Assembly (NCBI GenBank): GCA_003152315.1
Contig: PLZV01000051.1
Span: 62,001 to 126,000, forward strand
Length of the DNA: 64,000 bases
Reading direction: 5' to 3'
Source of the DNA: Verrucomicrobiota bacterium
GTDB lineage: Bacteria; Verrucomicrobiota; Verrucomicrobiia; Palsa-1439
Shown here: positions 15,821-28,592 of the stretch, one piece after another
How positions within the stretch are numbered: the stretch's first letter is position 1
Layout of the letters: every line of letters starts with the position of its first letter
Position numbers and translations under genes: made by a program
The notes under the pieces: generated by a model
What the model was told of the DNA's origin: nothing
Database searches by the model: none
The model's input: the letters and a program-made list of their open reading frames with translations, nothing else

Positions 15821-16858
15821 GTGGCGGCCAGTGGAAACGGCCGCGAAATGGGAATGAAACCTTCCTCCAAAGATCTGGCGGTCCTTTATTACCAGTTGGG
15901 GACGATGCTGCAAGCGGGTGTCCCGATCCGAAATGCGCTCAGGTCGCTACAGGAAACCGGGCCGCGTCCGCTGCGCAAAACTGTCGCGTTTCTAGGCGAG
16001 CGCGTTCAGGAAGGCGAGCCCCTGCATCAGGCTGTCGCCCAGTGCCCACATTGCCGTTTTGCCCGCCTCGATCAGCATACTCTCGCCGTCAGCGAACAGA
16101 GCGGGGCCCTGGACGTGGGACTCTTGTCTCTCGGCAACTACTACGAGAATCTGGCGCGAGCGCGGCGCAAAATGATTTCTGCTTCGATGTTTCCCGCCTT
16201 AATACTGATGGTGGCGGTATTCGTCTCCCATCTTCCCGCCCTCGTCGCGGGCGCAATGGGGCAGGGAAACTACGGATTGTCGGAGTACTTGCGTGACACG
16301 GTCGGGTTCCTCATTCTTCTTGCCGTCGCGATTTGCGCCATGGGCTGGTTGATCCGCACCGCTCTTAAGACCCCCAAGCTGGATCTGGTGATAGACCGAT
16401 TCATCCGCCACGTGCCGCTGTTTGGCCGCGTGCGATTTGATTATGCCCTGAGCCAGTGGATCTCTTCGGTTCGATTGATGCTCAAAGCCGGTTTTGGCGT
16501 CGTGCCCGCACTCGAGTTCTCCAGCAAGACCATCAATAGCCCACAGATCGCCCACGCCTACGACATTGCCCGCCCCCTCATCGACAGCCAGTTGGAAGTC
16601 AGCCGCGCGCTGCAGGCCACCGGCGTTTTCCCGGAGCAACTGATCCAATTTTGGGCGACGGGAGAACAAAGTGGTCGTCTGGACGACATGCTGGACCGGC
16701 TGGCGCAGCATTACGAGGAACGCTGGCGTCAGAGCCTGGATCTTCTCAGCAGTTGGCTCCCGCGGATCGCCTATGGACTCGTCTGCGTGTATATGATTTT
16801 CCAAATGGCGAATCTGCTCGGCCCCCTTATCGGCGCTTATTCAGAAGCACTGCAGTAA
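15821..16858 (+). CDS. GspF/PilC-like type II secretion inner-membrane protein
   Basis: A 345-residue polytopic protein with two T2SSF-type helical repeats, LAVLYYQLGTMLQAGVPIRNAL and later ISSVRLMLKAGFGVVPALEFSS, each followed by membrane helices (near residues 130-150, 165-185 and 320-340). PilC/GspF proteins form the platform under the secretion or pilus ATPase. At 345 residues it is somewhat shorter than typical (about 400). The GTG at 15821 follows GGAG by about 7 bases; internal ATGs ten and twelve codons later are alternatives. The only related genes nearby are a PilT-type ATPase (23643) and a prepilin (5942); no GspD/E/G set is present. Confidence 0.75.
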   Translation: MAASGNGREMGMKPSSKDLAVLYYQLGTMLQAGVPIRNALRSLQETGPRPLRKTVAFLGERVQEGEPLHQAVAQCPHCRFARLDQHTLAVSEQSGALDVGLLSLGNYYENLARARRKMISASMFPALILMVAVFVSHLPALVAGAMGQGNYGLSEYLRDTVGFLILLAVAICAMGWLIRTALKTPKLDLVIDRFIRHVPLFGRVRFDYALSQWISSVRLMLKAGFGVVPALEFSSKTINSPQIAHAYDIARPLIDSQLEVSRALQATGVFPEQLIQFWATGEQSGRLDDMLDRLAQHYEERWRQSLDLLSSWLPRIAYGLVCVYMIFQMANLLGPLIGAYSEALQ

Positions 16859-16906: not shown

Positions 16907-17485
16907 ATGCCAGCGCCCGTCAAATGCGACGACCCTGTGTCCGCGCCTGAGATGGCAACCACGCCTTCGGCACCGCCCGCGCCCGGGTCGTGGCAGGCCC
17001 TCTACGAGCAACACTCCCGCTATGTCTATTATCTGGCCCTGCGTACGGTCGGCGATCCCGCCCTCGCCGAGGACATCACGCACGATGTGTTCTTGAAAGC
17101 CTATCGCCACCTCGACCAATTTCGCGGTCAATCCGGCCTACGGACCTGGCTGTATCGCATCACCATCAACCATTGCCAGAACGTGCAGCGCGCCTGGCAG
17201 AAGCGGAACATCATTAGCACCGGCGATCCGCAAGTATTGGACGCCGTGGCCGCCAATACGGACAGCCCCTTGCGCGTCCTGGAGATCAAGGAACTGGGAC
17301 AGAGAATCCAGCAAACGCTGGAGGCACTGCCCGACGAATACCGGTTACTACTCTTGCTTGTGGCGGACGAAAATCTGAGCTACCAGGAAATCGCGTCGCT
17401 GACGGAGCAGAGCTCCGATGCGGTGCGGGGCAAGTTGCACCGCGCCCGCCGGGCATTCGTCCTGGAATTTCAAAAGAACAGTTGA
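16907..17485 (+). CDS. ECF-type RNA polymerase sigma factor
   Basis: A 192-residue sigma factor. Region 2 is LYEQHSRYVYYLALRTVGDPALAEDITHDVFLKAYRHLDQFRGQSGLRTWLYRITINHC in segments, with the DVFLKAY and TWLYRI hallmarks. Region 4 is TLEALPDEYRLLLLLVADENLSYQEIASLTEQSSDAVRGKLHRARR. It would direct RNA polymerase to a small stress-type regulon. Its stop touches the downstream small gene, which may encode an anti-sigma-like partner although no membrane helix or ZAS motif is seen there. Autoregulation and control of the following cluster is a reasonable guess. Confidence 0.9.
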   Translation: MPAPVKCDDPVSAPEMATTPSAPPAPGSWQALYEQHSRYVYYLALRTVGDPALAEDITHDVFLKAYRHLDQFRGQSGLRTWLYRITINHCQNVQRAWQKRNIISTGDPQVLDAVAANTDSPLRVLEIKELGQRIQQTLEALPDEYRLLLLLVADENLSYQEIASLTEQSSDAVRGKLHRARRAFVLEFQKNS

Positions 17486-17493
17486 AAGGCCCT

Positions 17494-17745
17494 ATGAATT
17501 CAGACACACCCAAGCAACGCCTTCAGCAACGTCAGGTGGAGGAACAGTCCGCTGAACAACAGCAGACCACCGGACAGCAAGCCGGCCTGGCGTTCGATTC
17601 CGTAGAGGAATTGCTGCGCTATGACAACCTCCAGACCATACCGCCCCCGGCGATTGCCGAGCGCCTCAAGGCTTCCCTGGAACAGGAGCCAGAACCGAAG
17701 CGCTCCTGGTGGCATCGGCTGTTTGGGGGCCGCGCCTCGGAATGA
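17494..17745 (+). CDS. Small hydrophilic protein, possible sigma-factor partner
   Basis: About 83 residues: a Gln/Glu-rich N-terminal half, then FDSVEELLRYDNLQTIPPPAIAERLKASLEQEP and a basic, Trp-containing tail (RSWWHRLFGGR). The segment PPAIAERLKASL resembles the short helix at the N-terminus of many anti-sigma proteins, but no transmembrane helix follows. The ATG at 17494 with upstream GAAAGG is preferred to a TTG at 17482. It lies immediately after the ECF sigma gene and before the rhomboid-like gene. I do not recognise a family. Confidence 0.65.
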   Translation: MNSDTPKQRLQQRQVEEQSAEQQQTTGQQAGLAFDSVEELLRYDNLQTIPPPAIAERLKASLEQEPEPKRSWWHRLFGGRASE

Positions 17746-17770
17746 TGTTCACGCTTCAGCCGGGTGACTC

Positions 17771-18427
17771 ATGAAACGGTCTCTATCTCAACTTTCAGGA
17801 TTACTTACCCCCGGTGTCCGCGTCCTATTGGTCGCGCTCACCGTGTCATACGTGGTCGCCGTTCTCGGAAGCGTGTTGAGGGCATATGACTTGTACCGCT
17901 GGCTCGCACTTGACCCCTCTGCAGTTTGGAAAGGATGCGTATGGCAGGTGGTCACGTATCCGCTGTTGCCGGAAGGACTCATGAATTTCATTTTCAGTGC
18001 GATCGCCATCGTGTGGCTCGGTCGACAACTGGAGCGGGAGTGGTCTCGGAAGGAGTTGTGGTCCTATTGCCTGCTCACAGCCACCGGAGCCGGCGCGGCA
18101 AAGCTGTTGTTGTCATCTTGGAACGGCTACCCGCTGACGGGAACCGCCGGTATCGTCCTCGGCATGCTCGCGGCCTGGCTGCGACTCTTTGGCCATGAGA
18201 AGGCGGTGTTTTGGTCCGTTTGGGAGACGACGGTTTTGCAGGCCGGCCTGCTGATGACTGCCATTGGTCTGCTGCTAATGCTGTTCACTGCCGGTTGGGT
18301 GGATACGTTGGTCATGTTTTGCGGAGGTCTTGCTGGTTGGCTGTATCTGTCAGTGCGCTGGAAATTGAATCGCGAACAGCCGGGCCAAATAACAGAATCC
18401 CGCCGAATTCGCCGGCTGGAATTATGA
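17771..18427 (+). CDS. Rhomboid-fold membrane protein lacking catalytic residues
   Basis: A 218-residue protein with about six membrane helices. The rhomboid layout is visible: an N-terminal helix, WKGCVWQVVTYPLLPEGLMNFIFSAIAIVWLGRQLEREW (L1 loop and TM2, with the usual Asn), then TM4 with PLTGTAGIVLGMLAAW. In active rhomboids the TM4 motif is GxSG; here it is GTAG, so the nucleophile Ser is Ala126. In TM6 the catalytic His position of the HxxG motif is Met182/Phe183 (VMFCGGLAG). I therefore call it a pseudoprotease (iRhom/derlin-like idea). Its stop overlaps the following radical SAM start as ATGA. Confidence 0.7.
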   Translation: MKRSLSQLSGLLTPGVRVLLVALTVSYVVAVLGSVLRAYDLYRWLALDPSAVWKGCVWQVVTYPLLPEGLMNFIFSAIAIVWLGRQLEREWSRKELWSYCLLTATGAGAAKLLLSSWNGYPLTGTAGIVLGMLAAWLRLFGHEKAVFWSVWETTVLQAGLLMTAIGLLLMLFTAGWVDTLVMFCGGLAGWLYLSVRWKLNREQPGQITESRRIRRLEL

Positions 18428-19293
18428 TCCTCGTCGAACCCAATCCGTTGCCGATACGCATTCACGACCGGGCGGTGGTCGCCCGCGAACGTGCGCAAGC
18501 CGCACGTGCCGCCCTGGCTGACTGCCAGTTGTGCGCGCATCATTGCGGCGTCAATCGGCTCGCCGGCGAACAAGGACTTTGTCACGCCGGCGCCGAGGCG
18601 CGGGTGTTTTCCACACAGTTGGAAGTGGGTGACGAATTAGAATTGCTTCCCACGTTTGCCATCGCTCTCAGCGGCTGCGATCTGCGGTGCTCCTTCTGCA
18701 TTACCGGAGCTGAAAGTTGGAACCCACGAGTGGGGGAACCGTTGTGTACCGCCACCCTCGCGGCACAGGCAGAGGCCGCCATGAAGACGGGAGCGCGGAC
18801 CGCCATGATTCTCGGAGGCGAGCCAACCGTTCATTTACCAGCCGCGCTGGAGATTGTCGCTGTGTTACCACCGTCGCTGCGCCTCATCTGGAAGACCAAC
18901 GCCCATGGCACCGCCCTGGCCCGAACCTGGCTGGAGGGGCTGTTCGACGTCTGGCTGGCGGATTACAAATTCGGGAACGACCACTGCGCGGAACGTTTGG
19001 CGGGCGTACCGCGCTACCAGAATGTGGTTCGCGAGAATCTTGCCTGGGCCAGCCACCATAGCGAACTCATCGTCCGTCATCTGCTGATGCCGGGACATGT
19101 GGATTGCTGCTGGGAACCCATTGCCCGATGGCTCGCGGCAGAACTGCCGGCTGTGAAGGTGAGTCTGCGATCCGGCTTCTGGCCTGCGTGGCGGGCCACA
19201 AATCATCCGGAATTGTCCCGACCTTTCTCGCTGACGGAACTGCAGTCCGCGTGGACCATCGCCCGCAGTTATAGCTTGCGTCTGATCGAATGA
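18424..19293 (+). CDS. Radical SAM protein, pyruvate-formate-lyase-activase-like
   Basis: A 289-residue radical SAM enzyme with CDLRCSFC (CxxxCxxC) binding the SAM [4Fe-4S] cluster, preceded by CQLCAHHCGVNR, a Cys-rich N-terminal element found in PflA-like proteins of unknown role. ILGGEPTVH corresponds to the GGEP motif. The ATG at 18424 overlaps the rhomboid stop (ATGA), which excludes the longer upstream frame. It is tightly coupled to the next small gene as well. In this context it may modify a partner in the Ycf46/DUF1257/DUF2997 cluster, but no substrate is evident. Confidence 0.8.
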   Translation: MILVEPNPLPIRIHDRAVVARERAQAARAALADCQLCAHHCGVNRLAGEQGLCHAGAEARVFSTQLEVGDELELLPTFAIALSGCDLRCSFCITGAESWNPRVGEPLCTATLAAQAEAAMKTGARTAMILGGEPTVHLPAALEIVAVLPPSLRLIWKTNAHGTALARTWLEGLFDVWLADYKFGNDHCAERLAGVPRYQNVVRENLAWASHHSELIVRHLLMPGHVDCCWEPIARWLAAELPAVKVSLRSGFWPAWRATNHPELSRPFSLTELQSAWTIARSYSLRLIE

Positions 19294-19505
19294 AACCCAA
19301 GACTCATCACTCCAAGATGGCAACGACTGGGAATGCGTCGATGACAGAGTTGCTGATCCACGCGGATGGCACCGTTTTCGCCCACAACCTGACGCCTGCC
19401 ATGGCCGAGTTGTTGAGTGCCCTCAACCCGTCCGACGGACCGATGAAGCAACGCGCTTGCGCAATCAAACCGCGACCATCCGATGAACTTCCAGCAAGAA
19501 CTTGA
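19290..19505 (+). CDS. Small protein coupled to the radical SAM and AAA genes
   Basis: A 71-residue frame whose ATG overlaps the radical SAM stop (ATGA at 19290..19293) and whose end overlaps the start of the AAA ATPase gene by 23 bp. The middle part, MTELLIHADGTVFAHNLTPAMAELL, looks like a folded alpha/beta peptide, while the tail is basic and irregular. It could also begin at the internal ATG at 19341. The coupling on both sides supports expression. I do not recognise it; it may be a peptide partner or substrate of the radical SAM enzyme. Confidence 0.5.
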   Translation: MKPKTHHSKMATTGNASMTELLIHADGTVFAHNLTPAMAELLSALNPSDGPMKQRACAIKPRPSDELPART

Positions 19506-21036
19506 GACCCTGATCCGGGCCCGTTACCCGATCCTGTACATCGTGACTTCCGAAGAGACGCGGGTCCAAAACCTGATTGTGCCGATCGCCGCCAAACGCC
19601 AGAAAAAAGTGTTCGAGTGGTCTTATAGCACGGGTCTGCTTCCCGCTGGCACTTCTTTCCAGTCCCAGAAGCACCGGAATGCCGCCACGAAGGACCCATT
19701 GACCGCGCTGGACCAGGTGATCGACCAGGTCGAGCCGGCGATTTTCGTCTTCAAGGATTTCCACCCATTCCTGACCAAAAATAATTTTGCGGTGATCCGC
19801 AAACTCAAGGATATCGCCCTGCACCTGAAGAACAGCTACAAAACGGTCATCCTCATTTCCCCCACCCTGGAGATTTCCATGGAGCTGGACAAGGAAATCA
19901 CCCTGCTGAATTTCCCGCTCCCCTCGCGCGAGGACCTCGGCGTGTTATTGGACGGGATCATCAAGGATCTGAAGGACGTGAAGGAAGTAAAGATTGAACT
20001 CGACGATGCCGGTCGCGAACGTTTGTTGCAGGGCGCCCTCGGCCTCACGCTGAGCGAAGCGGAAAACGTGTTTGCCAAAATCATCGTCAAGGACGGCCGT
20101 CTGAGCGGTGACGACGTGCAGGAGGTCTTCGCCGAGAAGCAACAGATCATCCGCAAGAGCGGGTTGTTGGAATACTACGCCACCAGCCAGACGATCTCCG
20201 ACGTCGGAGGCATGGCGGTACTCAAGGATTGGTTGCTGAAACGCGCTGTGGCGTTTACCGAGCAGGCCCGCGAATTTGGCCTGCCCGCCCCGAAGGGCGT
20301 GTTGCTCTTGGGCGTACAAGGCTGCGGCAAGAGCCTGTGTGCGAAAGCCGTCTCCAGCCTTTGGCAGCTTCCGCTCCTGCGGTTTGACATGGGTCGCATG
20401 TTCAACAGCCTGGTTGGTTCTTCCGAGGAAAACGTCCGGAAGGCCATTGCCGTGGCCGAGTCTGTCGCTCCCGCCATCCTTTGGGTGGACGAAATCGACA
20501 AGGCCTTTGCCGGCATCCAGGGTTCGGGCGGTTCGGACGGAGGTACCACGGCACGCGTCTTCGGGACATTCCTGACATGGCTTTCGGAGAAGACGACCGC
20601 CGTGTTCGTGGTCGCCACGGCAAATGACATCTCCCAACTTCCACCCGAACTCCTGCGCAAAGGAAGGCTGGACGAGATCTTCTTCGTCGATTTGCCCGCG
20701 GAAGAGGAACGCACTGAGATTTTCCGCATCCATCTGGCCCGGCGCGGACGCCGTCCCGAAGACTTCGACATCAAGGCGTTGGGGACTGCCAGCGAACACT
20801 TCAGCGGCGCCGAAATCGAGGAAGCAATCATCAGTGCTTTGTATGACGCCTTCTACGCGCAACGTGACCTGACGATGGACGATATTCTCCAGACGATGAG
20901 CCAGACGGTGCCGCTCTCCAAGACCATGGACGAACATCTGAACCGCCTGCGCAGTTGGGCCGAAGGCCGGGCCCGGCATGCCAGCGTCCCGCGCGCCCTC
21001 ACACCGGCCAAGGACCATCGGCGCATGGAGTTTTAG
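19483..21036 (+). CDS. AAA ATPase of the Ycf46 type
   Basis: A 517-residue protein. The first 220 residues are an alpha/beta region (RARYPILYIVTSEE, AIFVFKDFHPFL, TVILISPTLEI) typical of Ycf46-like proteins. The AAA module follows with Walker A GVQGCGKS, Walker B AILWVDEIDKAF, sensor 1 ATANDIS and an arginine-finger region ELLRKGRLDEIFFVDLP. The SRH and C-terminal helical lid end near RRMEF. Ycf46 is conserved in cyanobacteria and plastids, where its role is poorly known, and it often neighbours DUF1257 and DUF2997 genes, as here. It is probably the motor of this cluster. Confidence 0.85.
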   Translation: MNFQQELETLIRARYPILYIVTSEETRVQNLIVPIAAKRQKKVFEWSYSTGLLPAGTSFQSQKHRNAATKDPLTALDQVIDQVEPAIFVFKDFHPFLTKNNFAVIRKLKDIALHLKNSYKTVILISPTLEISMELDKEITLLNFPLPSREDLGVLLDGIIKDLKDVKEVKIELDDAGRERLLQGALGLTLSEAENVFAKIIVKDGRLSGDDVQEVFAEKQQIIRKSGLLEYYATSQTISDVGGMAVLKDWLLKRAVAFTEQAREFGLPAPKGVLLLGVQGCGKSLCAKAVSSLWQLPLLRFDMGRMFNSLVGSSEENVRKAIAVAESVAPAILWVDEIDKAFAGIQGSGGSDGGTTARVFGTFLTWLSEKTTAVFVVATANDISQLPPELLRKGRLDEIFFVDLPAEEERTEIFRIHLARRGRRPEDFDIKALGTASEHFSGAEIEEAIISALYDAFYAQRDLTMDDILQTMSQTVPLSKTMDEHLNRLRSWAEGRARHASVPRALTPAKDHRRMEF

Positions 21037-21068
21037 ACTGCGTGAATTGAGAACAAGGATACCGGCCC

Positions 21069-21206
21069 ATGAATCTGGAATCGATTGCGGAATTCTTCAG
21101 GAGATGTGGCCAATTTGGTGGAAATATCTTCGTGCTGGTGTTCGTCACTTTCCTGGTCATCGGCACGGTGATCTATGTGCTATCGATCGTGTTTGCGCAT
21201 CATTGA
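21069..21206 (+). CDS. 45-residue single-pass membrane protein
   Basis: A short frame of 45 codons. It starts MNLESIAEFFRRCG, then has one strong membrane helix (NIFVLVFVTFLVIGTVIYVL) and ends FAHH. AAGGA lies about 10 bases before the ATG. It is placed 32 bp after the AAA ATPase gene on the same strand, inside an otherwise tightly packed operon, so it is likely translated. No family is recognised. It may anchor a complex to the membrane. Confidence 0.6.
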   Translation: MNLESIAEFFRRCGQFGGNIFVLVFVTFLVIGTVIYVLSIVFAHH

Positions 21207-21285
21207 TGCTTTCGCAACAAGATTTACCGCGTGAGTAAGATGGCAGTCCTTTGTCTAATCCATGAACGAAGGAGTCTTCATATAT

Positions 21286-21762
21286 ATGAGTTCCGTAAGC
21301 ATTTTAACACCCGTTGTTGTGGCGGCCTGGCCCGTGTTCAGCGCGGTCGTCGCAGCGGCAGCCACTTCTCTGGGGTACACCGTCGTGGCGGATGTCCTGG
21401 ATAAGGTGGGGCCGATGACCGCAACGACCAAAACCGTCCAGCGTGTGGAATTGCAAATCGCCAATACCGAACTGGTGACCGACCAGTTGGGTCGCGACCA
21501 GCGCATCACCGTCACCCGCGGCGGGGTGACCGTGACCTTTTCGCGCGACGCGCGCGGCCGTGCCCAGGTCTGCGTCAATGGCGTTGGTGAAACCGAGGAA
21601 GCACTCCGCGCGTTCGGTGAAGAATTGAGCCAACGCGTGGTCCAACAATATGTCTACCAACGATTGATCGATGAGTGTCGGGCGCGCCAATTTCTTGTCG
21701 TCGAGGAAGAAGTGGAAGCCGACAAGAGCATTCGTTTAAAGGTCCGTCACTGGGAGGGTTGA
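21286..21762 (+). CDS. DUF1257 (Ycf35)-like protein with divergent N-terminus
   Basis: About 158 residues. The C-terminal half, QRVVQQYVYQRLIDECRAR followed by FLVVEEEVEADKSIRLKVRHW, matches the end of Ycf35/DUF1257 proteins (YAYHK...EE, VVEEEV...IRL). The first 30 residues are instead hydrophobic (LTPVVVAAWPVFSAVVAAAA), and the middle segment RDQRITVTRGGVTVTFSRDARG is a beta hairpin. I chose the ATG at 21286 because GGAG lies about 12 bases upstream; an ATG at 21262 lacks such a site. It precedes the DUF2997 gene by 2 bp, the same pairing as in cyanobacteria. Function unknown. Confidence 0.65.
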   Translation: MSSVSILTPVVVAAWPVFSAVVAAAATSLGYTVVADVLDKVGPMTATTKTVQRVELQIANTELVTDQLGRDQRITVTRGGVTVTFSRDARGRAQVCVNGVGETEEALRAFGEELSQRVVQQYVYQRLIDECRARQFLVVEEEVEADKSIRLKVRHWEG

Positions 21763-21764
21763 AG

Positions 21765-21965
21765 ATGCCGCAACGCGAGTTTGAGATCACCATTGCTCCC
21801 AACGGGAATGTGGAGTTGCACATCAAAGGATACAAGGGCAAGAGCTGTCTTGATGTCGTCCGTCTCTTTGAACAAATCGTCGGCAAAGTTGAATCCCAGC
21901 GCGAAACGAGCGAGTTTTATGAACCCGAAGAGGATGTCCGTTTCCGAATCGATCAACGGCAATAA
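21765..21965 (+). CDS. DUF2997 protein
   Basis: A 66-residue protein: FEITIAPNGNVELHIKGYKGKSC, then an amphipathic helix (LDVVRLFEQIVGKV), then SEFYEPEEDVRF. This matches the DUF2997 pattern of a two-strand start ending in G-x-S-C, a helix, and a Tyr-Glu tail. GGGAGG lies 7 bases before the ATG at 21765. DUF2997 proteins of cyanobacteria are usually encoded with DUF1257 and a ferredoxin near Ycf46; their biochemical role is unknown. Confidence 0.8.
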   Translation: MPQREFEITIAPNGNVELHIKGYKGKSCLDVVRLFEQIVGKVESQRETSEFYEPEEDVRFRIDQRQ

Positions 21966-21988
21966 ACGGGTGGGGCACGGAGAGAACT

Positions 21989-22879
21989 GTGAGAGACGCG
22001 GCAATCCATAGGCCTCAAGAGGCTTCGCAGTACTATCCGCCTCGCGAACGCTGGTATAGCCGGTTTTGGTATCCATGGTATCTCCTCAAGCGGAAACTCC
22101 ATCTGGCCGTCATAACAGACGGATTTGAACTGCCGCTGCACAAGCTGATATTGGGGATGACGGTGCCGGGACTCTCGTGGCTGTGGTATGGACGTCGCAT
22201 TTTTAGCTTGGTGACGATCGCGAGTTATTGCCTCTTCGCGATCACGTTTCTAATCTGGATCGGCTACCCGATGGGAACCCTATCGCTGGCAATGTTGATG
22301 TCGATCCATACGAGCAGCATTCTGTACATGAATCGGCGGCTGACGCCCGATGTGCAGTTATGGAAGCGAATCGTCTGGTCGCTGGTGGTGTTCGCGCTGG
22401 TGAGCCTGTTGGTCTATCAACCGCTGCGTCGGCAGTTGGAACGACGGTGGTTCATGGCGTTACGCATCGGCGAGCGCGTGTTGGTCGTTAAAACGAGCGT
22501 GTCTTCCGGCCTCGTCAAACGTGGTGACCGGGTCGTCTATCAGATCAACGCCGGCCGGAGGTACCAAACCCTGATCGAAGAGGGTTATGGGGTCAGCGAA
22601 GTATTGGCTGTGCCCGGTGACAAGATCTCCTTCCAGGCAAAAGATTTTTCTGTCAATGGCGTGCGGCAGCCGCGGCGCGCCTATATGCCGGCCACCGGGA
22701 ATCTGGTGGTGCCTGATGGAAGCTGGTTTATTTGGCCGGATGTGACTATAAGTGGACACGGTGAAGTAGGAGCCGACATGACGGAAAATGCCATGACCGC
22801 GCTGGCGATGGTACCCAGGTCAAACTTCATTGGAGTGGTGTTCCACCGCTGGTGGTGGAGAAGACAGACTCTGCCATGA
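21989..22879 (+). CDS. Signal-peptidase-I-like (S26) membrane protein without catalytic residues
   Basis: A 296-residue protein with about four membrane helices in its first 150 residues. A periplasmic domain then aligns with signal peptidase I: RIGERVLVVKTSVSSGLVKRGDRVVY (boxes B-C), VLAVPGDKISF (box D) and LVVPDGSWFIWPD...VPRSNFIGVVF (box E). The nucleophile motif SGSMEP is replaced by RRWFMAL (Ser to Phe), and the general-base Lys before VI-GLPGD is replaced (SEVL). It is therefore probably an inactive S26 fold with an added membrane domain. It starts with GTG after GGAGAG. Its stop overlaps the TPR gene (ATGA). Confidence 0.7.
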   Translation: MRDAAIHRPQEASQYYPPRERWYSRFWYPWYLLKRKLHLAVITDGFELPLHKLILGMTVPGLSWLWYGRRIFSLVTIASYCLFAITFLIWIGYPMGTLSLAMLMSIHTSSILYMNRRLTPDVQLWKRIVWSLVVFALVSLLVYQPLRRQLERRWFMALRIGERVLVVKTSVSSGLVKRGDRVVYQINAGRRYQTLIEEGYGVSEVLAVPGDKISFQAKDFSVNGVRQPRRAYMPATGNLVVPDGSWFIWPDVTISGHGEVGADMTENAMTALAMVPRSNFIGVVFHRWWWRRQTLP

Positions 22880-23646
22880 GCCGATTCAACAATCTGGAAC
22901 TCGGCGGCGAATCCGAGGAACAATCAGCCGCGCAACCCCTCGTCAAGGACGAGGCTTATTATCAGCAGGAAGCCCAGACGGCGTTTGAAGCCGGCGATTT
23001 CGAGCAGGCCTTGCGTTCCCACGCCAAAGTACTGGAATACAATCCGCAGAACGCCGCCGCCTGGACGGGTCAGGTGAAAATGCTAATTGAATTGGGCGAA
23101 TTTCGCGAAGCCAAGCTGTGGGCCGACAAGGCGCTGGAGACGTTTCCGCACGAACCCGAGTTGCTTGCGGCCAAGGGCGTGGCGTTGGCCCGGATCGGCG
23201 ATATCAAGGATGCCCTGGCATTTTCGGATGCTGCCGTCGAGGAACGAGGCGACACCCCCTATGTCTGGTTGGCCCGGGGAGACGTCTTGCTCGCCGCGAA
23301 GCGCCGCCAAGCCGCGTTTTGCATGGAACAGGCGGTCGCGCGAGCCCACAATTGGCTCGTCCGCTGGCAGGCCTCGCGGATTTACTATTACTACAGCAAA
23401 TTCTCACTCGCGTTACAAATGGCACAACAGGCTTTGGCTTTGGACGCTGGCCGGAGCGTAATTTGGATGCAACTGGGATACTGTCAAAGCGCCCTCGGTC
23501 TTACCGCCCTGGCCAATGAATCCTTTGAACAAGTCCGACAGCTGAATCCGCACAATCGCGAGGTTACGGCGGCGTTGTTGGAGTCGACACGACTGGGGCT
23601 GGCCAGAAGATTTTCCCGCTTCTGGAGACGGGTCTTGCGCCGATGA
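22876..23646 (+). CDS. TPR-repeat protein
   Basis: A 256-residue protein with at least five tetratricopeptide-like repeats between residues 35 and 230 (for example AYYQQEAQTAFEAGDFEQAL, AAAWTGQVKMLIELGEFREA, PELLAAKGVALARIGDIKDA, VIWMQLGYCQSALGLTALA). The C-terminus is strongly basic (RRFSRFWRRVLRR). TPR proteins usually act as scaffolds, here perhaps for the PilT-like ATPase or the AAA ATPase. The ATG at 22876 overlaps the upstream stop (ATGA), and its own stop overlaps the pilT-like start (ATGA at 23643). Confidence 0.8.
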   Translation: MSRFNNLELGGESEEQSAAQPLVKDEAYYQQEAQTAFEAGDFEQALRSHAKVLEYNPQNAAAWTGQVKMLIELGEFREAKLWADKALETFPHEPELLAAKGVALARIGDIKDALAFSDAAVEERGDTPYVWLARGDVLLAAKRRQAAFCMEQAVARAHNWLVRWQASRIYYYYSKFSLALQMAQQALALDAGRSVIWMQLGYCQSALGLTALANESFEQVRQLNPHNREVTAALLESTRLGLARRFSRFWRRVLRR

Positions 23647-24731
23647 GACAAATGAAACTTGAGTCCCTGTTGGCGGCTGCAAAACAACATAACGCATCCG
23701 ACCTGCACCTTATTTTTGGGGTTCCCCCGGCCTACCGCATCAATGGCGAAATCATCCTGGCCGACGAAGATGCCATGTCCGCCGAGCAGATCTCTGAAAT
23801 TACCTACGGGCTGCTGAACGACTTACAGCGGCAAACGTTCGAGCGGGAATGGGAGCTTTGTATTTCCCTGTATCATAGCGCGGCCGGCCGGGTCCGCGTA
23901 ACGATCTACCGTCGCAATGGTCGCCCCGAACTGTGCTTCCGTCTTTGCGGCGAATCGATCCCCAGTCGTGAAATCCTGGGCCTGCCGCCAAAGGTCGATG
24001 AACTGGCACGCCGTCCCAATGGGCTGGTCTTGATCACCGGGCCGACCGGATCCGGGAAAACCACTACGCTCAATTATATGATCAACCTGATCAACAGCGA
24101 GCGCCGCTGCAAGATCGTGACCATTGAGGACCCGATCGAATTCGTCCACCAAAACCGTTCAGCGATCATCGTCCAGACCGAAGTGTTGACGGACACCCAT
24201 TCGTTTCATCGTGCCCTGATCCACGTGTTGCGGCAGGATCCGGATGTCATCGTCATTGGCGAGATGCGCGATCCGGAGACGATTGCGACCGCGTTGACCG
24301 CGGCGGAGACCGGTCATCTCGTGCTGGCCACGTTGCACTCCCCGAACACGACCCAGGCGCTGGAGCGCATCACGGGCATCTACGAAGGCAGTACCCAACG
24401 GCAGGTGATCCTCCAATTGTCCAACGTCCTACAGGGCATCCTCGCGCAGGATTTGTTGCCATCCGCCGATCGCTCCCGTCGCGTGCTCGCCTATGAAATG
24501 ATGATCGCCACCCCGGCGATCCGTAACGGGATTCGCGAAAACAAAATTACCCAGCTCGAAAACACGATGCAAGTGTCAGCCAAGGACGGGATGGTGTTGA
24601 TGGATAATTATCTCGCCGAGCTTTACGAGCGCTGCCTGATTACCTACGACACCGCCATCAGCCGCGCGCGTCGGGCGGAAAGCATCGTGAAAGACAACCA
24701 GCCCGCGAACGGTCAGCCAGCGCGCCGATAA
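23643..24731 (+). CDS. PilT/PilU-type secretion ATPase
   Basis: A 362-residue hexameric motor ATPase with all PilT landmarks: DLHL at the N-terminal domain start, Walker A GPTGSGKTTT, Asp box IVTIEDPIEFVH, Walker B DVIVIGEMRDPET, His box GHLVLATLHSPNT, and an AIRNGIRENK segment matching the AIRNLIRE motif needed for retraction. It lacks a Cys zinc site and a long N-terminal domain, so it is PilT/PilU rather than PilB. It ends a run of overlapping genes beginning with the signal-peptidase-like gene. With no pilin or secretin here, it may serve type IV pili encoded elsewhere or power this cluster's own process. Confidence 0.88.
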   Translation: MRQMKLESLLAAAKQHNASDLHLIFGVPPAYRINGEIILADEDAMSAEQISEITYGLLNDLQRQTFEREWELCISLYHSAAGRVRVTIYRRNGRPELCFRLCGESIPSREILGLPPKVDELARRPNGLVLITGPTGSGKTTTLNYMINLINSERRCKIVTIEDPIEFVHQNRSAIIVQTEVLTDTHSFHRALIHVLRQDPDVIVIGEMRDPETIATALTAAETGHLVLATLHSPNTTQALERITGIYEGSTQRQVILQLSNVLQGILAQDLLPSADRSRRVLAYEMMIATPAIRNGIRENKITQLENTMQVSAKDGMVLMDNYLAELYERCLITYDTAISRARRAESIVKDNQPANGQPARR

Positions 24732-24769: not shown

Positions 24770-25219
24770 TCAAACACGCCGCACGAGAATCTCGCGCGCA
24801 ATCTCAATTTCGAGCGCGAGCTCGGTCTCGCCCACACGCACGACGAACGTCGGCCGTTTCTGCTGCAGGATGAGCCGACTGCCCGGTGTGAGTCCGTAGA
24901 CCGCCAGGGCGTTGCGGCGTGAAGCTCGCGAACTGTTCAGGCAGACGAGTTCGCTATGCTCGCCTTCCTCCAATTCATGCAGGCCGAGAAGCGTACGGTC
25001 GGGGGCGGGCTTGCGGCCGCGATGGAACAAGCGTTGCAGCACATTCAGTCCTTGCGTCTTTTCGGGGAACTCGTAGCGGCAGTTCGGACAGCACACGAGC
25101 TTGCAGAATCTCCCCAGGGGGCAACCGTGCTGGCACGGCGTTTCTTGTTTCTCGAACTCAAACCCGCACAGGGGGCAGTGCAGAAACTGTGGCGCGGACA
25201 CTTTCAGTTTAGATTCCAA
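24770..25219 (-). CDS. feoA: FeoA with N-terminal Cys-rich metal-binding region
   Basis: A 149-residue protein. The first 55 residues hold nine cysteines (HCPLCGFEF, CQHGCPLGRFCKLVCCPNC), which look like one or two zinc- or iron-binding knuckles. The C-terminal 80 residues are an SH3-like FeoA domain (LLGLHELEEGEHSELVCLNS...LAVYGLTPGSRLILQQKRPTFVV). FeoA binds FeoB at the inner membrane and supports Fe(II) import. It overlaps feoB by 11 bp. The Cys-rich addition is not part of the classical 75-residue FeoA and could sense iron or Fe-S status. Confidence 0.88.
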   Translation of the reverse strand: MESKLKVSAPQFLHCPLCGFEFEKQETPCQHGCPLGRFCKLVCCPNCRYEFPEKTQGLNVLQRLFHRGRKPAPDRTLLGLHELEEGEHSELVCLNSSRASRRNALAVYGLTPGSRLILQQKRPTFVVRVGETELALEIEIAREILVRRV

Positions 25220-27176
25220 ACAGGCCTCCCAGGTGGTTTACCAGTCCGCCGACGAAGAACGCGAACGGGAAAATAAACATCGTGATCCAGAAAGCCGTCT
25301 TCTTGCCAAGTTCGCGCGAGATCATGAACAGGGTCGCGATGCACGGCATAAAGAGCGTAAGCGTCACCATGGCCACAAGCACCTGATGCGGCGTGAGCAA
25401 GTGTTTCGGCCCCGTCGCCGCGTCGAGCAGGAATACGGCGCCGTAGTCGCGCCGCAGAAAGCCGATAAGGAATGCGCTCGCCGTCTCACGCGGCAGCCCG
25501 AGCCAGCCCGTCACCAGCGGTTCGCCAAACCGTGCGATCTTGTCGAGCACGCGTAGCTTATCGAGGATGAAAAGAACCATCGTGCCGAGGACAAACAGCG
25601 GGATGACCTCTTTGAGATACCATTCGAGCCGCGCGAACGTCTTCGCAACGACGTTACCAAGGTGCGGCTGACGCATCGGCGGCAACTCCAGAATGAAGTC
25701 ACTCGTCTCGCCGCCATATAACTTCGCCGCAAGCCAGCCGATGATGAAGGAGATGAGAACCATCAAGATTATCCAAAATACAACCGCACGGATGGAAATG
25801 CTGGCCATCATGGCCATCAGCACGCCAAGTTGTGCCGAACATGGCACGGCCAACGCCAGAAGCAGCGTCGTGATCACGCGTTCCTTGCGGGTTTCGAGGA
25901 TGCGCGTGGTCATTGTTGCCATCGTGTCGCAACCCAACCCGAGTACCATCGGTAAGACCGCCTTGCCGTTGAGGCCCATGCCGCGAAACAGGCGGTTCAG
26001 CATTACCGCGAGACGCGACAGATAGCCCGAGTCTTCCAGCACGCTGAAGACGAGGAAGAACGTCGTGACGATCGGCAGCACAATGGCCAGCGAGTAGCTG
26101 AGCGCCATGGTGATCACGCCATATTCGCCGACGAGGAAATCATGCGCCAACCGCCTCACTTGGGTCCACCCTCCGAGCGTTGCACTCGGGGCAAGCGAGT
26201 AGGTTGGCGCGCTGACGATCTGGGTGTTTTCCCAGATAGAAATCCCGTATGTTGGTGAGAGCGGGATTTCCAAGTTGTAATGAGATTCTTGCGTGTCGTG
26301 CGTGTGCGGGAAGGGCAATACTATGTCCACCACCTGAATGGCCCACGGGTTGATGTAACGCCCGAACACGACCTTCTCGAAAAAACCAACCGCCGTGCCC
26401 GCGCCGAGCAGGCCAACGAACCAAAACGTGAAGTAAAGAACCAGTGCCGCCAGGGCGAGACCTTTGATTGGATGGGTCGCCCACCAGCCGAGTTTCTGAG
26501 CAAAGCTCGCGTGGCGCGGCTGCGTGATCGTGTACACCTGGGCGAGGATGGCGTTTGCGCGGGCGAGCTGAGCCTCAATCTCGGTGGGGCAAGGACGGCT
26601 GCCCGGAGCGTCCGACGGCAGGCTCGGGATGCGCGCCCTACCGATGGCTTGCTGCAACAGGTGAACTCCTGTTCCGGCGATGGCGATGGTTGGCACGACG
26701 GGAACACCAAGAATCTCACTGAGCTTGCGGACATCGATGCGACCGCCGCATTTATCGAGTTCATCCATCAAATTCAACACGAGCACCATCGGGCGACGAA
26801 GCTCGGCGAGTTGCAGGGTGAGCAGCAAGGCGCGACGGAGATTCTTCGCGTCGGCCACCTGCACAACCGTGGCTTCCGGGTAATCTCGCAGCACGTCACA
26901 CGTCACCCGCGCATCTTCCGTGCGCGGTGCAAACTCGTTCACACCCGGCGTATCGAGCACCGTAAATTCCTTGTCATCGATGAAGGTCCCACCGCGCGCG
27001 ATCTCGACGGTGGTGCCGGGATAGTTGGAAATGATGACAAATTTGCCCGTGAGTTTGTTGAACAGGACGCTCTTGCCGACGTTGGGGTTGCCAACAAGCA
27101 CCAGCATGGGCTGGGTTGTGGCCGTCTTGCGGCCTGCGGTCGACACGGCGTTATTTTCGTGGCAGGGCATGGGCAT
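25209..27176 (-). CDS. feoB: FeoB ferrous iron transporter
   Basis: A 655-residue protein. The N-terminal G domain shows G1 GNPNVGKS, the NYPGTTVE switch I, G3 DTPG and G4 NLMDELDK. A helical spacer follows, then gate/nucleoside-transporter-like membrane domains with conserved Cys (LGLGCDTMATMTTRILETRKER, VPCSAQLGVLMA). The protein imports Fe(II). It is shorter than the 770-residue E. coli protein and lacks the C-terminal Cys tail, which fits the separate Cys-rich FeoA. The start overlaps the radical SAM stop as TAATG. The placement links iron uptake to AhbC/AhbD haem synthesis. Confidence 0.93.
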   Translation of the reverse strand: MPMPCHENNAVSTAGRKTATTQPMLVLVGNPNVGKSVLFNKLTGKFVIISNYPGTTVEIARGGTFIDDKEFTVLDTPGVNEFAPRTEDARVTCDVLRDYPEATVVQVADAKNLRRALLLTLQLAELRRPMVLVLNLMDELDKCGGRIDVRKLSEILGVPVVPTIAIAGTGVHLLQQAIGRARIPSLPSDAPGSRPCPTEIEAQLARANAILAQVYTITQPRHASFAQKLGWWATHPIKGLALAALVLYFTFWFVGLLGAGTAVGFFEKVVFGRYINPWAIQVVDIVLPFPHTHDTQESHYNLEIPLSPTYGISIWENTQIVSAPTYSLAPSATLGGWTQVRRLAHDFLVGEYGVITMALSYSLAIVLPIVTTFFLVFSVLEDSGYLSRLAVMLNRLFRGMGLNGKAVLPMVLGLGCDTMATMTTRILETRKERVITTLLLALAVPCSAQLGVLMAMMASISIRAVVFWIILMVLISFIIGWLAAKLYGGETSDFILELPPMRQPHLGNVVAKTFARLEWYLKEVIPLFVLGTMVLFILDKLRVLDKIARFGEPLVTGWLGLPRETASAFLIGFLRRDYGAVFLLDAATGPKHLLTPHQVLVAMVTLTLFMPCIATLFMISRELGKKTAFWITMFIFPFAFFVGGLVNHLGGLFGI

Positions 27177-28546
27177 TAGTAAACGAACGATTCCAGTTCA
27201 TAGTGGCCGACATGTGGTCGACCGCGTTGTTCATCGAAGTGAAGGGCATCACGAATGGCTTGTTCCTGACTGCGCATCTCGGCGGCAGACAACGCCGCTA
27301 CCTTCAAGGCCTTCGTCTGTTCCGCGTAGCGGCCGTTTGGATAGATCACCAGCGGGGAAAAGTAGATAAAATCGTTGCGACCCAGCGGCAGTTCGTTGAT
27401 CAAACGGGCCGTTTCCCGAACATGTGCTTCGGCGAAGTCATGGCCACCGGCTCCCAGCAACGCGATCACCCCCACCACGAGACCCACTTCTTTCAAGCTC
27501 GTCACGCACTGCGCGATGCTCGCGCTCGTCGCCGGCTTGCAGAGCCATTTCAATAAATTGTCGTCCCCTGTTTCCAAGCCGAGATACACGCGACGCAGAC
27601 CGAGGTTATGTAGTTCCTCAAACTCCTGCGGCGTGCGGTGCGGGCCCGTAAACGCATCGAGAAATGTGCTCACTCCGTCGAAGCGGGTCTTGTGACCGAG
27701 CCACCAGTTTGCAGGCACGTGCTCGTCCCCATGAGGCGGGAACTCAAAGTGATCGCGGAGCACGCCGAAGATTCTCACCAAATCGCCCTGTGGCAGAGTG
27801 AGCGCATTGGCTTCACCGAGGAAGACGGAGCGGCGCGCACACAACGCCTCACCATGGAACGCAATCGCGTCTTGCAGGTGGCGGCTGAACTGATCGGCCG
27901 TCTTGCGACCGTAGAACACGCCGGAATACAACTCGCAAAACAGGCAGCAGGAATACGCGCAGCCTTCCGTGGCCTGCAACACAAGCGAGTTATACTGGTC
28001 GGGCGGCAGCACGGCGACACGACCGTAGATCGAGTGAAACTTCTCCGCATCGCGTCGAGCCACTTTCAAATCGAATTCCGCGGCGCGGGCCACTGACGGG
28101 ACTATCTCCGCCAGTGCTTGAGCAGGACCGGGTTTCGCATCCTCCAACGTGATCGGGCCTGCGTTCAGTTCCTCCCAGACCGGGGTAACTTTTTCGTGGG
28201 CTGCTTTGACCAGGGCATCGGTGTCTTCGGCTGATAGTGCATGGCGTTCGATGCCCCCACCTTCCTCGACGCTACGTATACGGGTCGAAAGCCCTCGGTG
28301 CGACAGGCCGCGTCGATGGTATTGATTGGGACGGGCAACCTTCGTCAGGCGACCTTCGCGGTCGTAGTGTAATGCCAAATCCTCCTCGAAGTAGAACGCA
28401 AGTTCCAGCGCTGAGAGAGCGAGGTAGACGCGCACGCCGCTTTTCAGGCGCACCTGCAGCCCCGCCGTATAGCGCGGCACTTCACCAAGCGCCAGTGCGC
28501 GCTGATATTGCAGAGTCTTCGTGCCCTTTGTCGTTGCAACCGTCAT
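27176..28546 (-). CDS. Radical SAM protein of unknown substrate
   Basis: A 456-residue protein. About 180 residues of unassigned N-terminal sequence precede the SAM-cluster motif GCAYSCCLFCELY, the CxxxxCxxC spacing seen in one group of radical SAM proteins (GCxYxxCxFC). Later segments YLGLETGDDNLLKWL and VIALLGAGGHDF follow the usual barrel order. The ATG at 28546 is likelier than the one at 28564. It lies between ahbC and feoB in the same operon. An oxygen-independent step in haem or iron metabolism is possible, but nothing in the sequence fixes the reaction. Confidence 0.8.
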   Translation of the reverse strand: MTVATTKGTKTLQYQRALALGEVPRYTAGLQVRLKSGVRVYLALSALELAFYFEEDLALHYDREGRLTKVARPNQYHRRGLSHRGLSTRIRSVEEGGGIERHALSAEDTDALVKAAHEKVTPVWEELNAGPITLEDAKPGPAQALAEIVPSVARAAEFDLKVARRDAEKFHSIYGRVAVLPPDQYNSLVLQATEGCAYSCCLFCELYSGVFYGRKTADQFSRHLQDAIAFHGEALCARRSVFLGEANALTLPQGDLVRIFGVLRDHFEFPPHGDEHVPANWWLGHKTRFDGVSTFLDAFTGPHRTPQEFEELHNLGLRRVYLGLETGDDNLLKWLCKPATSASIAQCVTSLKEVGLVVGVIALLGAGGHDFAEAHVRETARLINELPLGRNDFIYFSPLVIYPNGRYAEQTKALKVAALSAAEMRSQEQAIRDALHFDEQRGRPHVGHYELESFVY

Positions 28547-28592
28547 AAAACCCCAAAATTGCATCCCGCGGACCGCTCGCCCGCGCAGCCCG

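Follow-up and report, generated by a model that had tools for sequence, protein, structure and literature searches.

One of the questions raised by the Verrucomicrobiota genome studied here (GenBank assembly GCA_003152315.1) is why twelve genes of very different families should stand on one strand, mostly tightly packed. The genes lie at positions 16907-24731 of a 64,000-nucleotide stretch of contig PLZV01000051.1 (the whole stretch analysed, hereafter the window) and encode, among others, a Ycf46-type AAA ATPase (here the AAA), a radical SAM enzyme, DUF1257- and DUF2997-type proteins, a rhomboid fold, an S26 signal-peptidase fold, a TPR protein and a PilT-type ATPase. We find that the cluster is a conserved operon and that the clustering is not due to chance. 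Two of its unrelated members, the TPR protein and the rhomboid, carry the same short peptide, R[FI]xxLE[LF], at one end, and we tentatively suggest that its products form an AAA remodelling complex, regulated by stress and anchored at the membrane, in which the AAA, the rhomboid, the TPR protein and the PilT-type ATPase are linked.

Conservation and layout of the operon

The first-pass annotation of this DNA had warned that the clustering would be accidental if the genes were scattered in relatives, and had proposed a search for co-occurrence of the families. The search was run, and the genes are not scattered: the AAA, DUF1257, DUF2997, S26, TPR and PilT genes stand together in 22 loci of Verrucomicrobiota and Planctomycetota, in near-identical order. 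The relatives sampled were 80 named loci from a search with the AAA, 39 relatives, 388 genomes of the same phylum and 294 genomes of the phylum of the planctomycete that carries locus L042 (G419; L and G are our numbers for loci and genomes), and loci were scanned with profiles built from the cluster proteins. The 22 loci comprise 15, including the window, and seven from a later search of Planctomycetota; a few may share species. In most of them a radical SAM gene lies upstream of the AAA gene, and often a rhomboid gene lies ahead of it. The extracytoplasmic function (ECF) sigma factor and its small partner are an addition of the verrucomicrobial copies, and the planctomycete copies mostly lack both. 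Judged by the named relatives closest to it, the genome under study is a verrucomicrobial metagenome-assembled genome. Close relatives of the AAA are patchily distributed and were found, at the thresholds used, in 38 of the 388 and 35 of the 294 genomes. No paper describing the operon was found in the open-access literature, a search whose scope left out most subscription papers and preprints.

The genes, and one neighbour that is not counted as a conserved part, are as follows:

16907-17485, + strand: ECF-type sigma-70 factor, putative operon regulator (Sigma70_r2 2e-16, r4_2 1.7e-12; adjoins the AAA gene in verrucomicrobial loci)
17494-17745, + strand: sm87, small soluble partner of 87 amino acids (no Pfam match; conserved C-terminal WW.RLF; same position in at least 11 loci)
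17771-18427, + strand: rhomboid fold, catalytically dead here (PF01694, 46.3 bits against a cut-off of 22.6; alignment, active-site check, C-terminal motif)
18424-19293, + strand: radical SAM enzyme (PF04055, 36.0 bits against a cut-off of 29.5; NCBIfam; invariant Cys)
19290-19505, + strand: sm71, peptide of 71 amino acids with LxxDGxxxxHNLTPxxAxLL (no family; homologues at the same position in other loci)
19483-21036, + strand: Ycf46-type AAA ATPase, proposed motor (PF00004, 2.5e-27; tree; nearest solved relatives Cdc48/p97)
21069-21206, + strand: protein of 45 amino acids with one transmembrane (TM) helix (a two-TM protein fills this slot in L022 and L032)
21286-21762, + strand: DUF1257-like protein, Ycf35 variant with hydrophobic N-terminus (22.1 against 22.2 bits; alignment; AlphaFold2 model, pLDDT 78.7)
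21765-21965, + strand: DUF2997 protein (52.8 bits against a cut-off of 24.1; alignment)
21989-22879, + strand: membrane protein, catalytically dead S26 signal-peptidase fold (Peptidase_S26 PF10502, 31.4 bits against a cut-off of 22.9; alignment)
22876-23646, + strand: TPR protein starting MSRFNNLELGGESEE, proposed adaptor (TPR match; R3, F4, L7 and E8 of the motif invariant)
23643-24731, + strand: PilT-type hexameric ATPase (TIGR01420, 392.9 bits against a cut-off of 319.1; alignment; PilT matches in the PDB)
15821-16858, + strand: PilC/GspF-type platform protein (family match; 48 bp upstream of the ECF gene)

The dense packing with many ATGA overlaps described in the first-pass annotation is borne out, and four such junctions were verified (18424, 19290, 22876 and 23643). 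The preferred starts are 17494 for sm87, 18424 for the radical SAM enzyme, 21286 for the DUF1257-like protein, which aligns there with orthologues beginning MSAV, 21765 for the DUF2997 protein and 22876 for the TPR protein. The small sm87 is a putative anti-sigma factor or sigma partner. The PilC/GspF (T2SSF) gene was considered as a part of the operon and rejected, since it adjoins the ECF gene only in the window and in one congener. Beyond the operon, the minus strand (24770-28564) encodes, back to back, a FeoA-like protein extended at its N-terminus, FeoB and a weakly PhpK-like radical SAM protein.

A shared terminal motif

What could connect proteins as different as these? The N-terminus of the TPR protein contains R-F-x-x-L-E in all 28 operon TPR proteins checked; the four specified residues never vary, in contrast to the 20 residues after the motif. 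The C-terminus of the rhomboid has the same type of peptide, often in a degenerate form: the tail is RRIRRLEL in the window, RISRLEL, RIRRLEL, GRFDNIELD or GRFDNIEL in relatives and more degenerate elsewhere (SRFADLD, KRFSEIDLDG, GFVDID, AFVDVD, HHLELD). The rhomboids of the window and of a congener are 37% identical, as against 79-95% for the other operon genes, and the tail is nonetheless kept.

Other proteins encoded near related AAAs also have the motif at their ends, namely an NHL-repeat protein (L045), SNF2 helicases (L052 and L067), a pentapeptide protein (L106) and several small or family-less proteins (L062, L064, L103, L088/L180, L174, L176 and L179), and the zinc-ribbon proteins of L046 and L051 contain two tandem copies. 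Within 6 kb of the AAAs the motif matches at a terminus 35 times, whereas five rearranged versions used as controls average 0.6 matches. TPR homologues make up most of the 35 and are to be taken as a single family; other proteins carry the motif in 11 loci, one of them probably spurious (L153) and two being a single contig seen twice (L088/L180). Among loci without TPR or PilT genes the motif goes with DUF2997 (7/36 against 2/81, p = 0.004). The motif itself is confirmed by the Planctomycetota loci that were found later.

The motif is scarce elsewhere in the genomes. A DNA pattern for the N-terminal form gave at most one match per genome in 11 genomes, and all eight matches are the TPR gene, while a scan for the C-terminal form recovered the rhomboids of G000, G002 and G416. 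Further C-terminal carriers across the genomes were found at control level only, so that no client list can be drawn up. Judging from these scans, the motif would be a rare tag of this machinery and not a general degron. The shared end tag probably docks the TPR protein and the rhomboid to the same motor.

A core and an add-on block

In the AAA tree the operon AAAs form one group (SH-like approximate likelihood ratio support 94-96), which also includes two loci without the operon nearby. Reduced loci, with the ECF gene, its partner and the AAA alone or with a TM protein, TPR and PilT in addition, nest inside this group and are therefore best read as losses. Two contigs in the tree have labels that do not fit their position and are likely mis-binned or transferred: L066 (labelled Methanoregulaceae) groups inside Armatimonadota and L101 (labelled Omnitrophota) inside Verrucomicrobiota.

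Genome-wide searches of 13 genomes indicate which genes are lost together. The radical SAM gene is found in exactly the seven genomes that have the operon-type DUF2997 and is missing from the six with reduced loci; two DUF2997 genes of G411 are found elsewhere, on other contigs. Of the 13 genomes, 11 have TPR, and in G412 and G414 the TPR-PilT pair is on another contig, with the TPR protein beginning MSRFENLEF or MSRFGNLEF. The radical SAM and DUF2997 genes, together with the rhomboid, DUF1257 and S26 genes by synteny, thus behave as an add-on block that is lost as a unit. Since the radical SAM gene belongs to this dispensable block, the AAA, TPR and PilT genes are left to behave as the core.

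Analysis of the individual proteins

Over residues 3-517 the AAA, putatively of the Ycf46 type, is 48-49% identical to cyanobacterial AAAs that adjoin DUF1257. It contains a single stretch recognised as Pfam AAA (residues 273-403; a degenerate N-terminal AAA-like domain was not looked for), and Cdc48/p97 is its closest relative among solved structures. The ATPase motifs are intact in both the AAA and the PilT-type protein.

Of the named families, DUF1257 alone misses its curated cut-off, by 0.1 bit, and a genome-wide search with PF06868 (DUF1257) gave no match; alignment and gene position support the view that this protein is a distant kin of DUF1257. Its AlphaFold2 model is acceptable (predicted template modelling score, pTM, 0.72) and has no PDB match below E = 0.04, the best matches being partial. 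The DUF2997 protein passes the Pfam cut-off and has an invariant Cys (KGxxC) and Tyr (SE[FY]Y) in the alignment; its model is weak (pTM 0.43), with no usable structural match. Profiles of both families gave nothing convincing against PDB sequences.

The first-pass annotation noted that Ycf46, DUF1257 and DUF2997 are best known from phototrophs. This is true of the open-access papers searched, which treat them mostly as plastid or cyanobacterial genes and say little on function. The module itself is not mainly phototrophic. The AAA with DUF1257, DUF2997 or both is present in cyanobacteria, Myxococcota, Hodarchaeota, Spirochaetota (AAA with DUF2997) and phages; the full module is on at least 20 phage contigs, both DUFs being present in 20 of the 80 viral loci with the AAA (L193-L272). 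Three of the module loci, in Myxococcota and others (L080, L091 and L106), have adjoining genes for FHA-domain proteins, some of them long. In 17 cyanobacterial loci (range L073-L108) the gene before the AAA encodes a conserved protein of 108-150 amino acids, which contains a Cys pair and resembles ribbon-helix-helix proteins at its N-terminus. In other verrucomicrobial loci (L117, L121 and L126) DUF1257-DUF2997 stands beside a DUF3150 protein or genes resembling those of single-stranded DNA-binding proteins, which suggests a mobile element.

The radical SAM enzyme has the CxxxCxxC motif, an N-terminal CxxC...C...C and a conserved CC pair; invariant Cys number seven up to and including the cluster motif and three beyond it. 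It distantly resembles the AmmeMemoRadiSam and PFL-activase types and falls far below every specific NCBIfam cut-off. In the PilT-type protein Walker A, Walker B and AIRNxIRE (AIRNGIRE in the window) are intact. The operon PilTs form their own subfamily, with 38-40% identity between the window's protein and the other PilTs of the genome and 64-72% between it and the operon PilTs of other verrucomicrobial genera.

The S26 protein lacks the box B Ser and the box D Lys in the window, and neither was found in relatives with a readable region; most planctomycete members have an N-terminal zinc ribbon. The active site of the window's rhomboid also fails, with GTAG in place of GxSG and no His in TM6. 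The two proteolytically inactive folds that the first-pass annotation proposed are thus both inactive in this genome, and the S26 fold looks inactive in every readable relative as well; for the rhomboid the statement does not extend to four relatives, which are discussed below.

Possible mechanisms

How might these proteins work together? In the remodelling complex that we tentatively favour, the terminal motif would serve to dock its carriers to the AAA, as this is the sole component that all motif-bearing loci have in common. AAA and motif persist in G029, G412, G414 and G415, which lack DUF2997 and the operon radical SAM gene genome-wide. The rhomboid tail would tether the AAA ring to the membrane in the way that Derlin tails hold p97, and the TPR protein, docking through the same motif, would form a bridge to the PilT-type ATPase. 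The ECF factor and its small partner may switch the gene set on, and the radical SAM enzyme, DUF1257, DUF2997 and S26 proteins could be an add-on block for maturing or gating substrates. During envelope stress, such a complex would most likely pull on, or take apart, protein assemblies of the membrane or of pilus type. The undescribed, membrane-associated protein-handling system suggested in the first-pass annotation gains from the gene order in two phyla, the joint loss of the block and the docking-like motif; it might either modify proteins, through the radical SAM enzyme, or move them, through the AAA and PilT.

Several observations weigh against this remodelling complex. The motif was found by inspection and defined after two carriers were known, and was then tested on new loci. 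An earlier and stricter comparison of near and far motif matches, with TPR and rhomboid excluded, gave p = 0.12. The 80 viral loci have zero matches, against 0.6 for the controls, and many cellular AAA-DUF1257-DUF2997 loci also lack the motif, which therefore does not hold for the AAA family at large. Some genomes (G411 and G413) retain the AAA without TPR, the operon contains no protease partner, and no shared ECF promoter motif rose above shuffled sequences upstream of 14 ECF genes. Furthermore, GASG and the TM6 His are kept in the rhomboids of L110, L111, L112 and L159, which are apparently active. The tails of these four still carry versions of the motif, so that the tail, being kept with or without the dyad, is separable from catalysis. 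The conserved feature of the rhomboid would then be a scaffold role rather than deadness. The idea that the rhomboid is dead in all relatives was wrong, given the dyad of these four.

One alternative is pilus control, in which the PilT-type motor that retracts a type IV pilus, or that of a related system, is loaded, taken apart or inhibited by the AAA with its adaptor, and the other proteins tune this. PilT and TPR mostly stay with the AAA as other genes are lost, the PilT motifs are intact, the PilC/GspF gene lies close upstream in the window, and three further PilT/PilU-type genes and several T2SSF loci are found in the genome. However, the operon PilT is a separate subfamily, the operon has no pilin gene and the PilC/GspF gene is not conserved beside it, and we consider pilus control somewhat unlikely. 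A quite unlikely option is that the radical SAM enzyme modifies DUF2997, sm71 or DUF1257, and that the AAA and the membrane proteins only deliver the substrate. It agrees with the strict co-occurrence of the radical SAM enzyme with the operon DUF2997 in the 13 genomes and the invariant Cys of the latter, and it gains from a different radical SAM gene beside AAA-DUF2997 in two Spirochaetota and from the DUF2997-Ycf35-Fed7 operon of cyanobacteria (PMC4284462); yet most AAA-DUF1257-DUF2997 loci have no adjoining radical SAM gene, the reduced AAA-TPR-PilT operons do without it, and the enzyme belongs to no specific NCBIfam family by the cut-offs.

The genes might also be no more than neighbours under common control, an ECF regulon for envelope functions whose products share no complex. 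The ECF gene is the first of the operon and the families differ greatly, but the gene order persists in both phyla, including loci that lack the ECF gene and its partner (L038, L042 and L044), the genes overlap, and the motif is common to two unrelated members, which makes this explanation improbable. We regard as very improbable a role in conflict or anti-phage defence, which would relate the operon to mobile elements whose AAA-DUF1257-DUF2997 module is shared with phages. The viral copies, the DUF3150 neighbours in other verrucomicrobial loci and the patchy distribution of the AAA fit such a role; against it stand a coherent operon with one AAA clade and nearly fixed order, with no toxin or nuclease, and a PADLOC search that gave only generic similarity (AAA to IetA; TPR; ATPase) and the protein set of no system.

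Comparison with known systems

Of the known systems, the type IV pilus shares with the operon a retraction ATPase of TIGR01420 with intact motifs; the operon PilT differs in its subfamily and in being partnered with a TPR adaptor and an AAA, not with pilus genes. In cyanobacteria DUF2997-ycf35-fed7 is a conserved cluster, and the fed7 mutant of Synechocystis shows sensitivity to oxidative stress, metal stress and iron limitation (PMC4284462). This operon, in which ycf35 is the DUF1257 gene, and the AAA-DUF1257 pair of 17 cyanobacterial loci share the DUF families of our operon. Unlike it, the cyanobacterial versions have no rhomboid, S26, TPR, PilT or ECF genes, their AAA is of a different clade, and no terminal motif was seen beside it. 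A contractile-tail-like cluster of Spirochaetota (L062 and L064) has a related AAA, a DUF2997 and a radical SAM gene, and a neighbour that ends in RFxxLE[LM]; in contrast to the operon it is tied to tail sheath, tube and vWA genes and lacks rhomboid, S26, TPR and PilT. In these two loci the radical SAM protein is small and encoded directly upstream in the sheath/gp19 tube/vWA cluster, and the neighbour ends in RFSNLEL or RFGKLEMD.

The operon represents one AAA clade with a fixed set of partners, among which core and add-on genes can be told apart, and its motif is a peptide of six to seven residues that can easily be mutated. If this peptide is a docking site, it offers a handle on much of the AAA family. 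A doubtful but wider possibility is that a machine like Derlin-p97 arose convergently in bacteria, with the Ycf46-type AAA recruited through a terminal R[FI]xxLE[LF] peptide and the same code serving many unrelated partners of the AAA family in several phyla, namely TPR, rhomboid, zinc-ribbon, SNF2, pentapeptide and NHL proteins; if true, this would give a recruitment rule for a long-uncharacterised AAA family known from plastid genomes.

The closest parallel is Derlin-p97/Cdc48 of endoplasmic reticulum-associated degradation, where the C-terminal SHP box of human Derlin-1 binds the N-domain of p97 (PMC10575581). Both have an often-inactive rhomboid fold with a terminal docking or docking-like peptide and a Cdc48-like AAA, and for both a membrane-anchored remodelling is proposed. 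The differences are that the rhomboid tail of the operon has no SHP box, that its AAA has one recognised AAA domain and its own N-terminal region in place of the two domains of p97, that some rhomboids of its relatives are apparently active, and that Derlin-p97 has no counterparts of PilT, the radical SAM enzyme, DUF1257, DUF2997 or S26. By analogy, then, the machine of the operon would work like Derlin-p97 without being a member of that system, and a docking peptide would make it a bacterial parallel to the rhomboid-AAA membrane quality control of eukaryotes.

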